A stretch of DNA of 26,897 nucleotides from a virus. The first letter of the stretch is position 1. The number at the start of each line of letters is the position of its first letter. Location of the stretch: the IMG/VR virus record IMGVR_UViG_3300010233_000149, positions 997 through 27,893 of that record; one strand, given 5' to 3'. Positions 545 through 26,897 of the stretch are shown here, piece after piece. Position numbers and translations under genes: made by a program. The notes beneath the pieces are model-generated. The model did no database searches. It was not told where the DNA came from and saw only the letters and a program-made list of their open reading frames with translations.

Positions 545-811
545 ATGGATGCTCGTGAAAAGCACATTCTCCGTGTTCGTTTTCACAGGTTCATGCTCAT
601 GTTGTTGAGCATGAATGATGCAAAGGCCACTATCCGCTCCGAGAAAATACTCGGAGAATGGGTGTACAGGTATAGGTTGCAAACAACAGACGGGGATCGT
701 GTGGATTTTCTAGTAGACAGAACTGCTCTTTGTACTCACAAAGACCCGTTTTCCATAGCCAGGTTGGCTGCGGCTAACATGCGCCGACAACTTGGCCTGG
801 CACCTACTTGA
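545..811 (+). CDS. Hypothetical protein, 88 aa
   Basis: A small basic protein starting 1 nt after the stop of the Toprim gene, so probably cotranscribed and coupled with it. It has a basic N-terminal helix (REKHILRVRFHRFM), a probable beta-hairpin (WVYRYRLQTTDGDRVDFLVD) and a C-terminal helix. I recognise no family. Its stop codon TGA overlaps the -35 box of the promoter for the tail chaperone gene, so the operon boundary lies here. Confidence 0.65.
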   Translation: MDAREKHILRVRFHRFMLMLLSMNDAKATIRSEKILGEWVYRYRLQTTDGDRVDFLVDRTALCTHKDPFSIARLAAANMRRQLGLAPT

Positions 812-835
812 CTTTCCTTCCATCTGTGGTACACT
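808..835 (+). promoter_or_regulatory. Promoter, TGTGGTACACTT class, before tail chaperone gene
   Basis: TTGACT (808-813), a 16-nt spacer and TACACT (830-835). The 12-mer TGTGGTACACTT at 825-836 recurs at 1637, 3629 (one base changed) and 10220. Predicted transcription starts near 842, giving a leader of about 30 nt with an AAGAGG ribosome site before the ATG at 872. Confidence 0.7.
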
Positions 836-871
836 TCTAGTTCGTTCAGTTACTTTAACAAGAGGTTCCTC

Positions 872-1276
872 ATGCCGACATACAAATCGTTCAAAACCAG
901 TTCCCAAAAAGAAACTACTGGTATTTACTTCGACCTTGGTGATGACGGAAAGTTTCTACTTGCCCGCAGCGGCGGCGCAAACGATAAGTTCGAGAAGGCG
1001 TTTATGACGGCCATGAAACCCCACAAAAGCGCCGTCAAGACTGAGACACTGAGCTCTACCATGGCCAACAAAATTCTGGCCGGCGTCTACGCGGATTCAG
1101 TTATCCTGGGTTGGGAAGGGGTGACTGGCGAAGACGGACAATCCCTGCCATACTCCCGTGACAACTGTGTCAAGCTCCTGACAGACTTGCCCGACCTGTT
1201 TGCGGAACTTAGGAAGCACTCCAGTGACATGGGAAATTTCAAAGATGAGATGAACCTGGACGCCGCAAAAAACTAA
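872..1276 (+). CDS. Tail assembly chaperone, short form (gpG-like)
   Basis: 134 aa. The pattern LLARSGGANDKFEKAF, then ILGWEGVTGEDGQSLPYS, then LLTDLPDLFAEL matches the first of the paired tail assembly chaperones of siphoviruses as I know the family. These bind the tape-measure protein while the tail tube is built. The start ATG has AAGAGG 6 nt upstream and a promoter at 808. The gene ends GCA AAA AAC TAA, so a canonical A AAA AAC slippery heptamer sits in the correct phase directly before the stop, followed by a stem-loop. This is the lambda G/GT arrangement and supports the assignment independently of similarity. Oddity: no tape-measure gene follows; that gene is on the other strand at the right edge. 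Confidence 0.85.
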   Translation: MPTYKSFKTSSQKETTGIYFDLGDDGKFLLARSGGANDKFEKAFMTAMKPHKSAVKTETLSSTMANKILAGVYADSVILGWEGVTGEDGQSLPYSRDNCVKLLTDLPDLFAELRKHSSDMGNFKDEMNLDAAKN

Positions 1277-1323
1277 GTGCCTGCCTCCTCTACCAGTTAG
1301 AACACGGTGAGCATGAGGCAGGC
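1267..1323 (+). promoter_or_regulatory. Programmed -1 ribosomal frameshift signal
   Basis: The slippery heptamer AAAAAAC at 1267-1273 is read as (GC)A AAA AAC in the zero frame, exactly X XXY YYZ. After a 5-nt spacer (1274-1278) comes a perfect 9-bp G+C-rich stem, GCCTGCCTC (1279-1287) with GAGGCAGGC (1315-1323), and a 27-nt loop that could also form a pseudoknot. A -1 slip moves the ribosome into the frame that continues without a stop to 1617. Site, phase, spacing and an open downstream frame all agree. Confidence 0.88.
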
Positions 1324-1617
1324 TTGATTGAAAACGCTAAGCGATCTCGTCGTCCACTTCCGGACATAATTCTCAATGCGCCGACCTATGATGACGATTT
1401 GAAGTTTTATTGGAGGGCCTTCTGGAGGCTCTCCTCGTGCCGATCTATCGGTTTCGGCATTGGACCAATACCTATCTCAGACATCTTCCTGTACTGCAAA
1501 CAATTCAAACTTGACCACGAAGATACCGCCGACTTCGTTTTTATGATCCAGAAGATGGACGAGACGTTCCTGGATTTCCATCGTGCACAATCGGAGAAGG
1601 ACAGACCAAAGAAGTAA
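1273..1617 (+). CDS. Tail assembly chaperone, frameshift extension (gpT-like)
   Basis: Read in the -1 frame from the slippery site, this adds 114 aa to the 134 aa of the short form, giving a fusion of about 248 aa. Translation from 1273 runs LSACLLYQLEHGEHEAGLIE and on into a protein-like sequence with FYWRAFWRLSSCRSIGFGIG and PIPISDIFLYCKQFKLDHED. The FYW-AF-LS-R and PIP patterns are those of second tail chaperones in other phages. A separate start at TTG 1324 is possible, but the only purine-rich sequence before it forms the 3' arm of the frameshift stem, and the frame upstream is open and protein-like, so I prefer the fusion. In lambda the minor fusion product recruits the tape measure and tube protein. 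Confidence 0.8.
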   Translation, partial: LSACLLYQLEHGEHEAGLIENAKRSRRPLPDIILNAPTYDDDLKFYWRAFWRLSSCRSIGFGIGPIPISDIFLYCKQFKLDHEDTADFVFMIQKMDETFLDFHRAQSEKDRPKK

Positions 1618-1662: not shown

Positions 1663-2487
1663 ATGGTCCATTCGCCATTTAAGTTTATCTGCCACCTCGA
1701 ATTTCGTCGTGGGTCTTACGTTAAAAAAGCACTGGCATACGTTCTCCCTGACTTCCCCTCATGCCCCGTAACCCATGATCTACGATCCCTCGTCCCCAGT
1801 TCCTCGAAGAACCTTCTCGAAACTCCCGACAACCTAACTCGCGAACAAGAGAGTGTCGTCTTTTTGTATCTGAATTTCTGTAAGCAACAGTACAACAAGA
1901 ACCTGAAGTTGCTTACTCGCAACAAGGTGGAGACTCCTGCTCTATCTCTGTGGTTACAGAAGATAAGACACATGGAAGAGTACATTTGTCGAAACAACAT
2001 TCGTCTGGTTACGGCTCTGGTCGGTAGGTATGCCTACCACAATGCGGCATTGTCATGGAACGAAGCTGTATCTGTGGGACAGGAGGCTCTGCTTAATGCC
2101 ACTCACAGGTTTGACGTGTCACGTGGATTCAAGTTCAGCACATACGCTTCGACAGCAATACTACGTGACCTGAGCAAAGCCAATGTAAAGCAGCAAACCC
2201 ATGGGAAAAGATTTTCTCAGATGCCCGAAACGTTTCCAGAAGGAGACAAGGCCATCACTGTAGAAGATAAATCGGATACGGAAGAATCCTTGGACATGTT
2301 GCGAAAAGTATTGGCCGAAAACACGGCAGGTTTGAACGAACACGAGAAGATAGTTATCTCTCACCGATTCTCTGACACTAAGTGTACGCTGGACGATGTG
2401 GCTGCAATCATCGGTCTGACCCGCGAGAGGGCGAGACAGATACAGGTGTCGGCGTTGGCGAAGCTGCGGAAGGTCATGGTCCAATGA
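1663..2487 (+). CDS. Phage-encoded sigma-70 family RNA polymerase sigma factor
   Basis: 274 aa. Region 2 spans about residues 106-172 (NNIRLVTALVGRY, then SVGQEALLNATHRFD, then RGFKFSTYASTAILRDLSKA). Region 4 spans about 222-270, with a helix-turn-helix LDDVAAIIGLTRERARQIQ. Region 1.1 is absent and the linker between the domains is short, as in compact phage and alternative sigma factors. It should bind host core polymerase and direct it to phage promoters. In region 2.4 the usual Trp-Trp after FSTYA is replaced by Ser-Thr, which suggests changed -10 recognition or melting. The gene is preceded by a promoter of the TGTGGTACACTT class, so it may act on itself. Its stop overlaps the next start (ATGA). 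No Shine-Dalgarno is visible before ATG 1663. Confidence 0.9.
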   Translation: MVHSPFKFICHLEFRRGSYVKKALAYVLPDFPSCPVTHDLRSLVPSSSKNLLETPDNLTREQESVVFLYLNFCKQQYNKNLKLLTRNKVETPALSLWLQKIRHMEEYICRNNIRLVTALVGRYAYHNAALSWNEAVSVGQEALLNATHRFDVSRGFKFSTYASTAILRDLSKANVKQQTHGKRFSQMPETFPEGDKAITVEDKSDTEESLDMLRKVLAENTAGLNEHEKIVISHRFSDTKCTLDDVAAIIGLTRERARQIQVSALAKLRKVMVQ

Positions 2488-3611: not shown

Positions 3612-3639
3612 TTGACTTCCCCCGCATATGTGATACACT
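3612..3639 (+). promoter_or_regulatory. Promoter, TGTGATACACTT class
   Basis: TTGACT (3612-3617), a 16-nt spacer and TACACT (3634-3639), within TGTGATACACTT (3629-3640). It drives the lipoprotein gene with a leader of about 33 nt carrying AGGAG (3666-3670) before ATG 3679. Confidence 0.7.
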
Positions 3640-3678
3640 TGCGTGACTGACAATATCATTCACACAGGAGTATCGCTT

Positions 3679-7937: not shown

Positions 7938-9863
7938 ATGATTACTGCCGGCGTCACGTTCGGGGGCGGGGGAAGTGGACCGCCTGGACGGCCCGGTAGA
8001 GATGGTGTTGGTATCGCCGGGAAACCCGGCGCAGATGGTGAGTCTTCCCGCATCCCCGGTCCAAAGGGAGAAACAGGACAGGGTTTCCGGTGGGTTAAGA
8101 CCTACGACGCAAAACAAATCTACGAACCCTACGACGTTCTCCATTACCAGGGCGACTGCTATACTTGTGTCCGAGCCTGTCGCGGCATTGTTCCCACGAC
8201 GAAAGAGTACTGGAACATAGTTGCGTTCCAGGGTCTTCGCGGACCCAACGGGGCGAGCGGCACCAACGGTCTTCCCGGTCTGCACTGGACCGGTCCATGG
8301 TCCATCGCCAGCACGTATAGCATCAATGACGGTGTGTCATTCAGCGGCTCATCCTACATCGCCATCCTGGCCGGCGTAGGCAACGAACCAGACACCTCAC
8401 CCTTGTTCTGGAACATTCTGGCGCAGGGTGGCAGCGGTGGAGGTGGATCGACCGCGATCATATCCACCGGGGATTTACTCACTATCGGCAGTACAGGTCA
8501 GCAGACACGTCTTCCTGTTGGATCGACCGGACAGGTGCTGACCGTCAGTAGCACAAGCTCAACGGACCTTGTGTGGGCAACTCCCACAATGGGAGGAAAC
8601 GGCACGGTGACTTCCGTTGGCCTATCTCTGCCGGCTGTGTTCACCGTCAGTGGATCACCCGTCACCAGCACTGGAACGCTTTCTGCTGTGTTCACCAACG
8701 AATCCAGTACATTTGTATTCGCCGGTCCACCTGCTGGTAGTGCTGCGGCACCTCCGACGTTCCGTAATCTCTCCACATCGGATATTTCCAATTATCCGGC
8801 AACTCCAGGCACCGTGACATCTGTTGACTTATCGATGCCGTCCATCTTCACGGTCAGCAACAACCCAGTAACTACCGCAGGAACGTTGACCGTGGCGTTG
8901 AATACTGAAGCGAGCACGTTGGTATTCGCCGGCCCTTCCACGGGCGCTGCGGCAGTGCCGACGTTCCGTCGTCTATCCACGTCGGATATTGCGGGATTCA
9001 GTGGAGGATCAGGGACCGTTACTTCTGTGGCGTTGACTATGCCTAGTACTCTTTTTGTCAGTACAGGAGGGACGCCGATAACGACGAGTGGGACACTAAC
9101 ACCTGCTCTGGTCGGACTTGCCACATCAACACATGTTGTGTTCGCCAGTGCTGCGTCTGGGTCGGGACTTCCTACTCCAGTGTTCCGCGCATTAGCTCAG
9201 GCCGACATAAATTTTGTCTTGGCTGCGAGTAAAGTATCCACAGGGACATTTACTTCTGTTGCAGGTGATCCTGCTATTACAGGTCAAGGGCAGGGATGGT
9301 TCAATAGTCAAAAACTTCAGGCGCGTCTTTGTTACGTGAATGATGGTTTGGGTGATATAAATGTTGGTACAATGAGTCTGATGCTTTTTGATTTGGCTAC
9401 CGATGAAACAATTACGGCCAATACAGTACTTGCTGACTATTCTAACTATCTTCTGACAGTAGCAGATTCTTCCGCAGTCGGTAGCTACGTAGGGATAGTT
9501 GGTCGAGTCATAAGAATAAAAGCGTTTCTTGATTTTGAAATATCTCTTCTCAACTCCTTTACTTTTAACGTTAGTTATGATGACAATGCAGTTGCTACGA
9601 TAACTACATCAAGTATCAGCGGAGCGTCAGGAACTGCTCTTCTCGACATAACTATAATCACCACTGGAACAAACACAGTGCGTGCCACGTGGTCTACTGT
9701 GTCCAGCAATGGTTCTGTTATAGCTACAACCGCTTCTGTAAAAGACACAACACTGGATGAAACCGTTTCGTCTGTAGCTAACATACTTTTTACTGTTAGT
9801 GCTGCATCGACACAAGTTACTGACACCTGCACAATAAAGTCCATGACTATAGAAGGGTTCTAA
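7938..9863 (+). CDS. Tail fibre with collagen-like and carbohydrate-binding-like modules
   Basis: 641 aa. Residues 14-48 and 97-115 are Gly-x-Y collagen-like repeats, which trimerise. Residues 50-95 and 115-163 are two modules with the W-Y--D-V-Y-G--Y---W spacing of CBM5/12-type chitin/sugar-binding domains. After a Gly/Ser linker (163-171) come three repeats of about 67 residues beginning GTVTSV, with PVT(S/T)-GTL, VFAGP and FR-LSTSDI, typical of phage tail-fibre shafts. The last about 215 residues form a different domain encoded by more A+T-rich DNA, probably the receptor-binding tip. No chaperone or autocleavage domain seen. It lies directly before the glycan cassette. Confidence 0.85.
   Translation: MITAGVTFGGGGSGPPGRPGRDGVGIAGKPGADGESSRIPGPKGETGQGFRWVKTYDAKQIYEPYDVLHYQGDCYTCVRACRGIVPTTKEYWNIVAFQGLRGPNGASGTNGLPGLHWTGPWSIASTYSINDGVSFSGSSYIAILAGVGNEPDTSPLFWNILAQGGSGGGGSTAIISTGDLLTIGSTGQQTRLPVGSTGQVLTVSSTSSTDLVWATPTMGGNGTVTSVGLSLPAVFTVSGSPVTSTGTLSAVFTNESSTFVFAGPPAGSAAAPPTFRNLSTSDISNYPATPGTVTSVDLSMPSIFTVSNNPVTTAGTLTVALNTEASTLVFAGPSTGAAAVPTFRRLSTSDIAGFSGGSGTVTSVALTMPSTLFVSTGGTPITTSGTLTPALVGLATSTHVVFASAASGSGLPTPVFRALAQADINFVLAASKVSTGTFTSVAGDPAITGQGQGWFNSQKLQARLCYVNDGLGDINVGTMSLMLFDLATDETITANTVLADYSNYLLTVADSSAVGSYVGIVGRVIRIKAFLDFEISLLNSFTFNVSYDDNAVATITTSSISGASGTALLDITIITTGTNTVRATWSTVSSNGSVIATTASVKDTTLDETVSSVANILFTVSAASTQVTDTCTIKSMTIEGF
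8601..9209 (+). repeat. Three in-frame repeats of the tail-fibre shaft
   Basis: Units start at about 8601, 8808 and 9012 (207, 204 and about 198 nt). Each encodes GTVTSV, LS/LT-P, a short variable part, GTL, VFA-P/AS and a closing FR-L---DI. DNA identity between units is moderate, so they are diverged protein repeats rather than recent duplications. Confidence 0.8.
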
Positions 9864-10201: not shown

Positions 10202-10230
10202 TTGACCTACCCGTACTTCTGTGGTACACT
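10202..10230 (+). promoter_or_regulatory. Promoter for leaderless glycan cassette transcript
   Basis: TTGACC (10202-10207), a 17-nt spacer and TACACT (10225-10230), inside TGTGGTACACTT (10220-10231). The first ATG, 10237, is 6 nt after the -10 box, so the predicted transcription start coincides with the start codon. No Shine-Dalgarno could be transcribed. Confidence 0.75.
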
Positions 10231-10236
10231 TACCCC

Positions 10237-19702: not shown

Positions 19703-22700
19703 TTAGTACTGGAACACAGCATAGGCAGTTTGGGTAGAGGTTGCGTTCTGGAACAGGCTGAAAAAGGTCGTCGAGCCGTTGGAGGTGTTCGACGTATGCA
19801 GGAACTTGATTGTGGTTCCGGTGCTGGCAGTAAAGGTACTGGTGCTTGTCCCAGAGGGAATCACGTTGATTGCACCACCACCGTTAAACTCACCCTGAAC
19901 TACCGCTCCACCTGGCAAGACGGTCCCAATGGTTGCCGTAAAGGTTCCTCCAGAGGGGACCGTGTATGTAGATGTCGGTACTGCGAAGGCCGTCGCCCCC
20001 AGGTACTGCTCAGTGCTCAGAGACGTGAGCACGGGGAAGTTAGTCACTCCCAGTTGCTGTAGAGCCTGGAAGGTTGAGCCTGAGAATATGTGACTGGTCG
20101 AGATCGCCACATTCAGAGTCGATGCTGTTGTTGATCCCTGTTGATTGGAAGTCACGATCCACCAGTTACGGGGGATGAACAGGGTATTAGTACTGGTCTG
20201 CGCCGTTGAATAGTAGACCAGGTTCCCGTTGGTAGATGTGTAGTAGGGAGATGCCTGATACTTCGTGCTGTTGTTCGTCGGAAAATCTGCCGGCAATGTG
20301 TTCTCGTTCAGCATTGCCAAAATTTCGTTGGTGTTGCGGTAGTCGCGGCGAGTATACGAAAGCACAACACCACGAGTGTCGTCGCTGACGTTGCTTGGCA
20401 CAAACAGAAGGTCAACGTAATAGCTCTGGTTGATCCCCGTTGTCGGGATGGATGTACCCCCACCTCCATGAACGCCAGTGCTGAAGTAGAGATCACCCAC
20501 GGTGGAGGGGAACGGGGTAGTCAGGAACGGGTAGTTACCTTGCGGCTCATTGACAGCAATGGTGTACGTTGATCCCACGGCAATGGCAATCGGGGGATTG
20601 AACGTGGCTTGTTGCCACCCGCTGGAGGACTCATTGGTGAAGACCGTAGAGCCAAGCATAGAACCTGTAGCTTGGTTGAATAGATAGCCTACATGCGTTC
20701 CACCGTTGGCAGGACCACCCTTGTAGAACCTCGCCGCATTAACAGTGCCTACCGTTGCCGTGGAAAAGATCATGCCCAGGTTGAAGTTGGAGCCGTCCGT
20801 AAAGATCGGGTTCTGAATCGTGGACGTGTTGTTAAACATGCTCTCACCAGTCAATGCGAGATTCACAGTATCCACGCTCACATTCTGCGGCCAGAGAGAG
20901 CCGTTCAGAGACAGGTTGGTCGGCGGGTATGGAGACTCTGCTCGGTTATTAAGAGTGATGAAGTTATTGGGGGAGTTACCAATAGGCAGAGAACCGTTCT
21001 GGTTAATATTGCGCAACTTGATGGAATACTGCATGTTCTGAACAAAGGAAAGATCAGTAACGTTTCCGGCCACGGAAATATTCCACACCATTGCGTTTTG
21101 GTTGTGAACGGTCGGTACAGTATCACATAGGCCACGGAATACTCCAGTATACTCGATAGTCGATGCCGTGGAATTTACTCCTGTGTAGGCAAAGATTTCC
21201 TGATCCACCATAGACAGGTTGAACAGGCCCACGCCAATCTGTGTTGAAGTGGCCGTTGTCAGTGAGGCAAAGACTGTAGCTATGGAATCAACACTCATAC
21301 CAGTAGAGAGGGTGTCTCCACCAATAGTGCTTGGGTAGTTCACAGTTGAAGAAAGCACTGTGCGTGTAAGGAATCCTTGCACGTCTCCTACCTGCTGGAA
21401 GTCCGTCGAAGTATAGGGGTTAGACCAGATTTCGATCTGAGAAGAACCATCATTAGGGTATTCAGCGCCTGCCCAGATGCGATCAAGAGCACCTGGATTG
21501 ACCACGGCCAATTGGTCAAACTTGTAAGGAGCTTCGAAGATCAACGAATTTTGGATCGTGATGGGAGCAGGTAAGATACCGCCAGGATTGGTCCATTGCG
21601 TAGAAGTTGGGTCTGCATAGGAAGGTGCACCAAAACCGAACACGTCTTGTGCCAAGTCAAGGACTATTGTCTGATCGTCTGACTTACCAAGGTCCACACG
21701 AATGATGCGCATGGGACGATTGATCACTCCCAGCGATGTGTTGGTGAACGCAACCACGTCTCCTGGATTATTCAGATAGAACGTACGATCCACCTCCACT
21801 GTCACCTTGCTCATAGGAACACACAGTGCTCGCAGATCACGCCATGCTATGTTATTGGCCAGAGTCTGATCTTTTACTCCACTGTACTTTTCTTCCACGG
21901 AAATAACAGTGCCACCCTGAATCATCACGTTGGCCATGTCCTGGGCAAGACCGTATGCCTCCTGATAACTATCCTCACGTGCGGAGAAACGAACGTTGAT
22001 CTGGTTAGTGGTGTCTTCCCATGCCCCTTGCGTATAAGATTTCACGCGAATGGTGTTTGATTCGTTGATTGCCGGAACAGTGTTTATGTTGTACCCTGCG
22101 CGGGCTAGGGTGCATTCCCACAAACCAGAGTTTCGATTGACAAAAATAAAGCCATCTATCTGACGTTCAATCTCTATTAACAGTTCCGTGCATTGAATTG
22201 TGTTATCAATGACAAGGCTGATGCCATTACCTTCGTTGTACAGGGTAGTAGCTGCCGCCTGGAAGTTTGCAACATTAACTAGAGTGGGGCTTTGTCCCAA
22301 CCCCCACACCGTGTTGGTAAGAATCTCGTATATTACTTCCATGGGATTGGAATCAGTACCAATCCCGTTTGAGTCCGTGTTTACAATGTTCATTCCGCCG
22401 CTCAACCCAAGATTGTTGGGACAGCGGCGCACCTCAAAGGCCCATGGCTCGATCTGACTTGAGTTACCAAACCAGAACCCCCAAGCCAGTACATAGGCGA
22501 GACCCCGGAAGGCTGGAGTAACAGCAGTGAATACACTGTTCAGAGAGGCAATGCCCATCGAATAGATTCCGTAAACGCTGAAGTCCGGCTCAACACTATT
22601 TGTTTCTGTGTTAAGATTGCCACCAAAACCCAGCATGAATCCTTGATTGATATCCGTAGGGATGTCCAAAATTCTGGGGTCGGACCAAGTACCACCGAAC

Positions 22701-23818
22701 GGGGTTATTGTTCCGTTGATCTTAATGGTAACAGTGTCTCCGGATATATCCATCTCAACCGTAGCCTGCGACGATGTAAGGTCCACGCCGGTGATGTTAG
22801 CCAGAGTAACTCTACCGGCACTTGTGGGAGAGGTGAACGACACAAAATACTGTTGATCTATGTATTCAAACACCACACCGTAGCTATTTGGAGAAGTCAG
22901 TCCCTGGTCCTGCACTTTACATGCGAATCCGATGACCGAACCTTGATCGGAGGCAGTAGTAACATCGCTGCCTTGCAGTACGACCACCATCTTGATTTGA
23001 TCGGATAGTCTTGGCCGGCTAGGTTGTTGTAACAGAGCAACGTATGTGGAATTATCACCAGTTCCAAGTCCTGCCTGAATCGACGATCTCATATGAACCG
23101 TGTTCGAAGAGTTTTCAGTCGCGTAAATATTCGAAGCTGTAACCATGACCTGTTGTGTTGATTGTAGTGCACCACCTCCTGTTATTGGCCCCTCTGTCCC
23201 TGTGTTGTAGACAGCATAGTATGCGTTGGGATCAGTAGCTTCGAATTCCTGGACAGGTTGTCTTTGCTGTCCTTGACTGAAGTCGTCGAACCAGATAAAG
23301 GCCGGTTGAGCCGCGCCTAGATTGGGATCAACGTTCTGGGTCGTCGTTCCCACATAAAAATCTACCTCACCTGCAACACCACCGTTTCCAGGAGGAGCGT
23401 TTCCACCATACATGTCCTCCATGTCTATGAAGATACTACCTTCTCCTTGCGCACCAGAGAATACAACAAAATCCCCGATGTAAATGGTTTTATAAAAGTC
23501 AATAGGACCGAGACACACAGCCATTTGAATAGAGGCATAGTATCTATAGCTAATAGTAACCCGACTGGAAGAAAACAACCCTGACTTTATGTGAGTGGTG
23601 TTAGCCACAGAGACGATGTTTCCATACCACACAACATTGGGGGCGTTGAGCAAAACGGTTCCCCACACCAACGGTATAACTCGCCCCTGGGTGGCGGTCG
23701 GAAACTGGAAGTCACCAAGAGAAGCAGGTCGTGCATTCTCTACATGTGGTTTGGGCTGAAGCAAGATGGAAATGGCAAAAGCAGCAACCCAGAGAATTAG
23801 TGTTGTTAATGTAAACAT
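19703..23818 (-). CDS. Tail tip/central hub protein (gpJ/GTA gp15-like)
   Basis: 1371 aa; AGGA 5 nt before ATG 23818. It starts with a hydrophobic helix (LTTLILWVAAFAISILLQP), then PASLGDFQFPTATQGRVIPL and VWGTVLLNAPNVVWYGN, the conserved opening of phage hub proteins. The middle (VYEILTNTVWGLGQ, then CTELLIEIERQIDGFIFVNR, then NNPGDVVAFTNTSLGV) matches the putative phage tail protein domain of lambda J and RcGTA gp15-like hubs. The last about 550 residues are Ser/Thr/Asn-rich beta modules, probably exposed fibre-like domains. It forms the needle end of the tail that contacts the cell. It follows the BR0599-like gene directly. Confidence 0.85.
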   Translation of the reverse strand: MFTLTTLILWVAAFAISILLQPKPHVENARPASLGDFQFPTATQGRVIPLVWGTVLLNAPNVVWYGNIVSVANTTHIKSGLFSSSRVTISYRYYASIQMAVCLGPIDFYKTIYIGDFVVFSGAQGEGSIFIDMEDMYGGNAPPGNGGVAGEVDFYVGTTTQNVDPNLGAAQPAFIWFDDFSQGQQRQPVQEFEATDPNAYYAVYNTGTEGPITGGGALQSTQQVMVTASNIYATENSSNTVHMRSSIQAGLGTGDNSTYVALLQQPSRPRLSDQIKMVVVLQGSDVTTASDQGSVIGFACKVQDQGLTSPNSYGVVFEYIDQQYFVSFTSPTSAGRVTLANITGVDLTSSQATVEMDISGDTVTIKINGTITPFGGTWSDPRILDIPTDINQGFMLGFGGNLNTETNSVEPDFSVYGIYSMGIASLNSVFTAVTPAFRGLAYVLAWGFWFGNSSQIEPWAFEVRRCPNNLGLSGGMNIVNTDSNGIGTDSNPMEVIYEILTNTVWGLGQSPTLVNVANFQAAATTLYNEGNGISLVIDNTIQCTELLIEIERQIDGFIFVNRNSGLWECTLARAGYNINTVPAINESNTIRVKSYTQGAWEDTTNQINVRFSAREDSYQEAYGLAQDMANVMIQGGTVISVEEKYSGVKDQTLANNIAWRDLRALCVPMSKVTVEVDRTFYLNNPGDVVAFTNTSLGVINRPMRIIRVDLGKSDDQTIVLDLAQDVFGFGAPSYADPTSTQWTNPGGILPAPITIQNSLIFEAPYKFDQLAVVNPGALDRIWAGAEYPNDGSSQIEIWSNPYTSTDFQQVGDVQGFLTRTVLSSTVNYPSTIGGDTLSTGMSVDSIATVFASLTTATSTQIGVGLFNLSMVDQEIFAYTGVNSTASTIEYTGVFRGLCDTVPTVHNQNAMVWNISVAGNVTDLSFVQNMQYSIKLRNINQNGSLPIGNSPNNFITLNNRAESPYPPTNLSLNGSLWPQNVSVDTVNLALTGESMFNNTSTIQNPIFTDGSNFNLGMIFSTATVGTVNAARFYKGGPANGGTHVGYLFNQATGSMLGSTVFTNESSSGWQQATFNPPIAIAVGSTYTIAVNEPQGNYPFLTTPFPSTVGDLYFSTGVHGGGGTSIPTTGINQSYYVDLLFVPSNVSDDTRGVVLSYTRRDYRNTNEILAMLNENTLPADFPTNNSTKYQASPYYTSTNGNLVYYSTAQTSTNTLFIPRNWWIVTSNQQGSTTASTLNVAISTSHIFSGSTFQALQQLGVTNFPVLTSLSTEQYLGATAFAVPTSTYTVPSGGTFTATIGTVLPGGAVVQGEFNGGGAINVIPSGTSTSTFTASTGTTIKFLHTSNTSNGSTTFFSLFQNATSTQTAYAVFQY

Positions 23819-25954: not shown

Positions 25955-26897
25955 TTAAACTCCTATGCCTTTCTTAACCGCATTAGGATTGCGAGTAATC
26001 GCGTTGATGACGTGATTCTGTCCTTCAGGGCTGTTTAAGAATGCCCCAAGCTCGTTAGGGTCTGTGAAGTTTGCAATATGAACATTAACAGACGGAGCAA
26101 GGGCAGCACCATTAGGCACGATTGAGCCGCTACTCTTTGGCATGAATATTTCTGGTCCTTGCTCGCCAACCAAATAGGGCGTTCCACCGCTGACATCACC
26201 GCCAGAGGCTTTACCACCGCCGAACAGACCGCCTATCAGGCTTCCAAGACCGGCTCCTGCGCCCCCTCCTGCTCCTGCCCCTCCGCCTCCTAACAACATT
26301 TGGAACGTCTGATTCAGGGCGAGCTTGATTAAATCCTGTTGGATGTTACCCAGTAAACCCTGCCAGTTAACCTTGCCTTTTTGCACGAACTGAGTCACGG
26401 CGTCTGTCATATCTTTGTAAGAATCTGTTACCAGACGCTTGGTCCCGGTCACGTTGTCGTCTATCTCTGCTTTGACGGATTCGAACCCGGCCTTCAGACC
26501 ACCGCTGAACGTATTGCTCTGTTCGTCCATCTTCTCTTTGATCTTGTCCTGTTCCAAATTATACTGAGCAAGAGTTATCTTGCCTTCAGCATAAGCATCG
26601 GTGAGACCCTTGAGTTCATTGACAGCCTTGGTGGTATCAAACTTATCCAGGATTTTCTGTGTTTCCTTCATGGCCTCCAGATGGGCTTTAACTTCTTCAG
26701 TGTCCTTTACGCCAGGGGATGCCGATTCAGGCCCACCGGAGGGTTGTGTTGTGGACTGTGCTGACGGGGCTGCGGCTTTGGAATTCTCTCTAAGTTTCTT
26801 CATGAGATCACTGAACGCTGTTTCAGTGGTGCCTTGTTCAGAAGTGAACCCCTCAGCAAACGCCTTGGCCGCTTTTTTTCCATCACTAGCCAGTGCG
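25955..26897 (-). CDS. Tape-measure protein, C-terminal part (5' truncated)
   Basis: The minus-strand frame is open through the right edge, so the first visible Met (26803) is not the true start. Seen: a charged helical region (KDTEEVKAHLEAMKETQKIL and following), WQGLLGNIQQDLIKLALNQT, a Gly/Ala-rich stretch GGGGAGAGGGAGAGLGSLIG, and GGTPYLVGEQGPEIFMPKSS near the end. The last motif and the Gly-rich segment are typical of the C-terminus of lambda-type tape-measure proteins. The full gene probably extends a long way beyond the window. Its chaperones are on the other strand at 872-1617. Confidence 0.88.
   Translation of the reverse strand, partial: ALASDGKKAAKAFAEGFTSEQGTTETAFSDLMKKLRENSKAAAPSAQSTTQPSGGPESASPGVKDTEEVKAHLEAMKETQKILDKFDTTKAVNELKGLTDAYAEGKITLAQYNLEQDKIKEKMDEQSNTFSGGLKAGFESVKAEIDDNVTGTKRLVTDSYKDMTDAVTQFVQKGKVNWQGLLGNIQQDLIKLALNQTFQMLLGGGGAGAGGGAGAGLGSLIGGLFGGGKASGGDVSGGTPYLVGEQGPEIFMPKSSGSIVPNGAALAPSVNVHIANFTDPNELGAFLNSPEGQNHVINAITRNPNAVKKGIGV

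Follow-up and report, generated by a model that had tools for sequence, protein, structure and literature searches.

The locus at the start of this window (the whole 26,897-nt stretch of viral DNA analyzed here) raises the question of whether two tail chaperone ORFs are joined by a programmed −1 ribosomal frameshift, and what is to be made of their position, detached from the tape measure gene. The features discussed are listed in Table 1. ORF1 ends in the codons GCA AAA AAC TAA. Each element of the cassette proposed in the initial annotation was located, namely, a slippery heptamer in phase directly 5′ of the first chaperone stop, a 5-nt spacer (positions 1274 to 1278), a perfect 9-bp stem, and a −1 frame that stays open into the second ORF up to 1617. 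The −1 frame opens at 1249; thus, a fusion, with a predicted length of 134 + 114 = 248 aa, could be made only by a shift between 1249 and the TAA. Judged from sequence, this is very probably a site of programmed −1 ribosomal frameshifting that belongs to a pair of phage tail assembly chaperones of the lambda G/GT type.

Table 1. Coordinates of features of the chaperone locus and of related genes in the window
Feature	Position	Strand	Basis or remark
Promoter-like repeat TTGAC...TGTGGTACACTT	808..836	+	Chaperone start codon follows after 35 nt; putative function
First chaperone, ORF1 (0-frame product, 134 aa; putative gpG-like role)	872..1276	+	Tail chaperone family matches
Slippery heptamer A_AAA_AAC	1267..1273	+	In phase, abuts stop
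0-frame stop TAA	1274..1276	+	
−1 frame extension (114 codons; begins at CTA 1273, stop ends at 1617)	1273..1617	+	
Hairpin, likely stimulator: outer 9-bp arms (1279-1287 / 1315-1323) plus inner helix	1279..1323	+	Folding
Possible separate ORF2 start: GAGG 1315-1318, 5 nt, TTG 1324	1315..1326	+	Read from sequence
Phage sigma-70 family factor, regions 2 and 4	1663-2487		Directly downstream of the chaperone pair
Tape measure gene	End at 25955, start in next contig	−	

The distinctiveness of the slip site was assessed by counting. When both strands were scanned in all frames, 1,816 stop triplets were counted, and AAAAAAC or GGGAAAC preceded just one of them, that at the end of ORF1. The looser pattern RRRAAACTRA occurred twice versus 0.91 expected, which indicates that the short motif is not decisive by itself and that homology is. 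Both ORFs matched tail chaperone families, in agreement with the identity first assigned to the pair. ORF1 matched the tail assembly chaperone families PHROG 313 (E value, 7.8e-25) and PHROG 8233 (5.7e-18) and had no match in Pfam; ORF2 matched PF23812, Phage_TAC_18 (5.8e-17, over 1324-1614), and PHROG 3817 (1.3e-27). PHROG 8233 covers both halves, at profile positions 8 to 140 and 160 to 254. Close relatives by single protein in viral_contigs numbered one for ORF1 (L008) and none for ORF2, the sigma factor, or a 288-aa tail protein.

The 17 codons from 1273 to 1323 were then considered, because they bear directly on how ORF2 is reached. In the −1 frame they read LSACLLYQLEHGEHEAG, which, when compared with 18 relatives, outscored every other 17-codon piece in the window (53,692 in total); this score was not equaled in any of 10,000 shuffles, and the other two frames scored negative. 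These codons therefore resemble the relatives only in the −1 frame. A competing explanation is that ORF2 is initiated or reinitiated separately at TTG 1324 by means of GAGG, that the hairpin serves to hide this site, and that a fusion is unnecessary. The ORF list does begin ORF2 at this TTG, as the initial annotation had anticipated of a gene caller, and the Shine-Dalgarno-like GAGG, which sits within the 3′ arm of the stem, is spaced 5 nt from it, so that ORF2 could also start independently. However, a TTG start would leave the 17 homologous codons untranslated, and when 19 −1 extensions are aligned, the slip-site residues K1 and L2 are invariant. Conservation of the heptamer and of the frame relation, described next, also argues against this explanation, which we regard as improbable.

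Conservation was examined in a hand-checked set of 21 loci (the window and 20 phage relatives) and in a larger junction set. An in-phase AAAAAAC or GGGAAAC was present in all 21 hand-checked loci; it abuts the stop in 18 and lies 39 nt upstream in YuA and CN1 and 3 nt upstream in Domovoi. For the larger set, IMG/VR loci were added from two lists of relatives (80 of 90 and 80 of 160 kept), giving 167 sequences with ORF1 and 165 with both halves; the 165 collapsed to 139 distinct junctions, including the window. Two were omitted: L029, which is truncated by the end of its contig, and L105, whose ORF2 went unmatched. In L105, AAAAAAA stands in phase ahead of TAG, and the −1 frame is open. ORF2 stood in the −1 relation in 139 of 139 junctions, and a canonical heptamer was in phase in 131 (60 with AAAAAAC and 71 with GGGAAAC). 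Close variants accounted for six more (AAAAAAT twice and GGGAAAA, GGGAAAT, GGGAAAG, and AAAAAAG once each), leaving two junctions, L043 and L089, with none of the listed heptamers. The initial annotation had named relatives lacking both the heptamer and the open −1 frame as evidence that would speak against a frameshift; the relatives instead keep both.

In L043 (around position 8393) and L089 (around 3547), the −1 relation is retained and the frame is open; their first frames end in CAG GAC TGA or CGG GAC TGA. Either a different shift site or another route to the second frame may operate in these two.

The junction set also bears on two further explanations of the paired frames. In one, RNA polymerase would slip on the run of six A that is present in the window, and mRNAs with an altered A count would fuse the frames. 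Yet GGGAAAC, found in 71 of the 131 canonical-site junctions, offers just three consecutive A; replacement of one heptamer by the other leaves tandem slippage of tRNAs possible while the long A run is lost, which argues against polymerase slippage, as does the hairpin-prone stretch 3′ of the site across the set. In the other, one continuous gene was split by a sequencing or assembly indel, as might be expected from an ORF2 lying one base off the ORF1 frame in a record that is a scaffold with N gaps (three, each of 10 N). The window, however, contains no N, and the identical −1 relation recurs in all 139 junctions, from many independent records. Polymerase slippage and an indel are both considered very unlikely.

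For the programmed frameshift, a stimulatory structure downstream of the heptamer was sought by folding. Positions 1274 to 1323 folded as one long hairpin (minimum free energy, −22.7 kcal/mol; z score, −4.06; equaled by 0 of 200 shuffles), although in a 101-nt context the z score was only −1.50 and 10 of 200 shuffles did equally well. The initial annotation had given a 27-nt loop for the 9-bp stem, but this loop is partly paired and the fold extends the stem inward. The case for the suggested pseudoknot is weak: the best pairing of the loop with downstream sequence was equaled by 118 of 2,000 shuffles and would compete with the inner stem.

Across the relatives, the 55 nt after the heptamer were folded for 138 junctions. 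The median z score was −2.12, and 53% were below −2, compared with 8% (n = 139) and 4% (n = 138) in two control stretches; about 47% of the junctions fall short of this value. Many relatives share a 12-bp hairpin with a 5-nt loop, from which the window hairpin differs while occupying about the same place. The shared hairpin paired in 68.5% of pair cells versus 34 to 53% with slid partners. Covariation in it did not exceed that of the slid controls (81 double-change cells versus 66 to 125). Since pairing was enriched and double changes were not, a claim of covariation was dropped, and the conservation of this hairpin may owe something to codon constraint.

We infer the slippage itself, its efficiency, and its role in assembly as follows. 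Most ribosomes would halt at TAA 1274 and release the 134-aa chaperone. A minority would be paused by the hairpin while AAA is occupied by tRNA-Lys and AAC by tRNA-Asn; the tRNAs would slip back one base to AAA AAA, and translation would resume at CTA 1273 to yield a fusion protein approximately 248 aa long. By analogy to lambda, the short form would coat the tape measure protein and the fusion would recruit the tail tube protein. Published text on lambda describes a low-level −1 frameshift that joins two chaperone parts as gpG and gpGT, with the short and fused products acting on the tape measure and tail tube proteins (PMC5009743). Lambda serves here as a functional model only.

Closer counterparts are found in the published text on two other phages. 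For gp12/gp13 of Acinetobacter phage vB_AbaS_Loki, the same cassette has been predicted; that pair precedes gp14 and the tape measure gp15 (PMC5313236), whereas the window pair is detached from such genes. In Burkholderia phage KL1, GGGAAAC was predicted immediately 5′ of the gp18 TGA, with a stem-loop (PMC3483164). KL1 gp18/gp19 (locus L017), which is annotated as a joined CDS, resembles the window in the heptamer that abuts the stop, the predicted stem-loop, and the homologous proteins; it differs in its heptamer, GGGAAAC, and in the synteny of the pair with the tape measure gene. The available text of the PRFect paper describes training on annotated phage frameshift genes, mostly tail assembly chaperones. 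Because both the mechanism and members of this cassette family have already been published, the window cassette is a further example and is not new in kind.

The position of the pair is a different matter. In relatives, the tape measure gene follows the pair closely and in the same orientation, and the window departs from this arrangement. A gene annotated as tape measure was just downstream on the same strand in 17 of the 20 fetched phage relatives; in the other three, the long gene was called hypothetical (one) or the record ended (two). The junction loci were tested for an ORF of 500 aa or more on the same strand that starts no farther than 2.5 kb away, a test of length and not of identity. 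Such an ORF was present in 107 of 139 junctions, 31 had too little sequence, and the window was the sole negative among the 108 testable loci. Here the pair is about 24 kb from the tape measure gene, is on the opposite strand, and adjoins the sigma-factor gene, while a Neck1-like gene stands beside the tape measure gene. The initial annotation was right in assigning the cassette to tail chaperones as a family, but at this locus the cassette lies outside the tail operon. No chaperone pair was found near the tape measure gene on the minus strand, and the 32-kb record, which may be incomplete, yielded single matches only and no second pair. A large tail protein (1371 aa; 19703-23818, minus strand) has a DUF4082 domain at residues 1004 to 1134, and its start matches PHROG 1180, labeled tail assembly chaperone. 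The partial texts of the literature searched state no detached chaperone pair, which is no proof of absence.

Sequences around the pair suggest how it might be expressed. The promoter-like repeat TTGAC...TGTGRTACACTT occurs on the plus strand at 808-836, 3612-3640, and 10202-10231, just upstream of genes, and its second half occurs alone at 1637-1648. The 12-mer TGTGRTACACTT has four exact copies in the record, all on the plus strand; none was found on the minus strand or in the control. We put at about even the chances that the cassette has left the tail operon and become an independent unit beside the sigma-factor gene, with a phage promoter to itself and with a chaperone schedule or level unlike that of the tape measure protein.

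Assembly quality was considered in this connection. Tetranucleotide profiles differed between the tail blocks and the remainder (correlations, 0.31 to 0.55), and the chaperone block correlated with the tail blocks at 0.39 to 0.50, values that neither show nor exclude a chimeric assembly. The scaffold gap at L003:3895-3904 falls inside the tape measure gene. To its right, the bases resemble by eye an inverted copy, about 30 bases long, from near the window's own end, and the join may therefore be a scaffolding artifact.

The cassette is a clean and well-supported addition to a known class; automatic annotation would tend to miss the fusion, as had been expected at the outset: a joined CDS was annotated in just 4 of the 20 fetched phage relatives. 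Only the detached position merits closer attention; provided that the assembly is correct, it would offer a natural test of whether production of the chaperones must keep pace with that of the tape measure protein.
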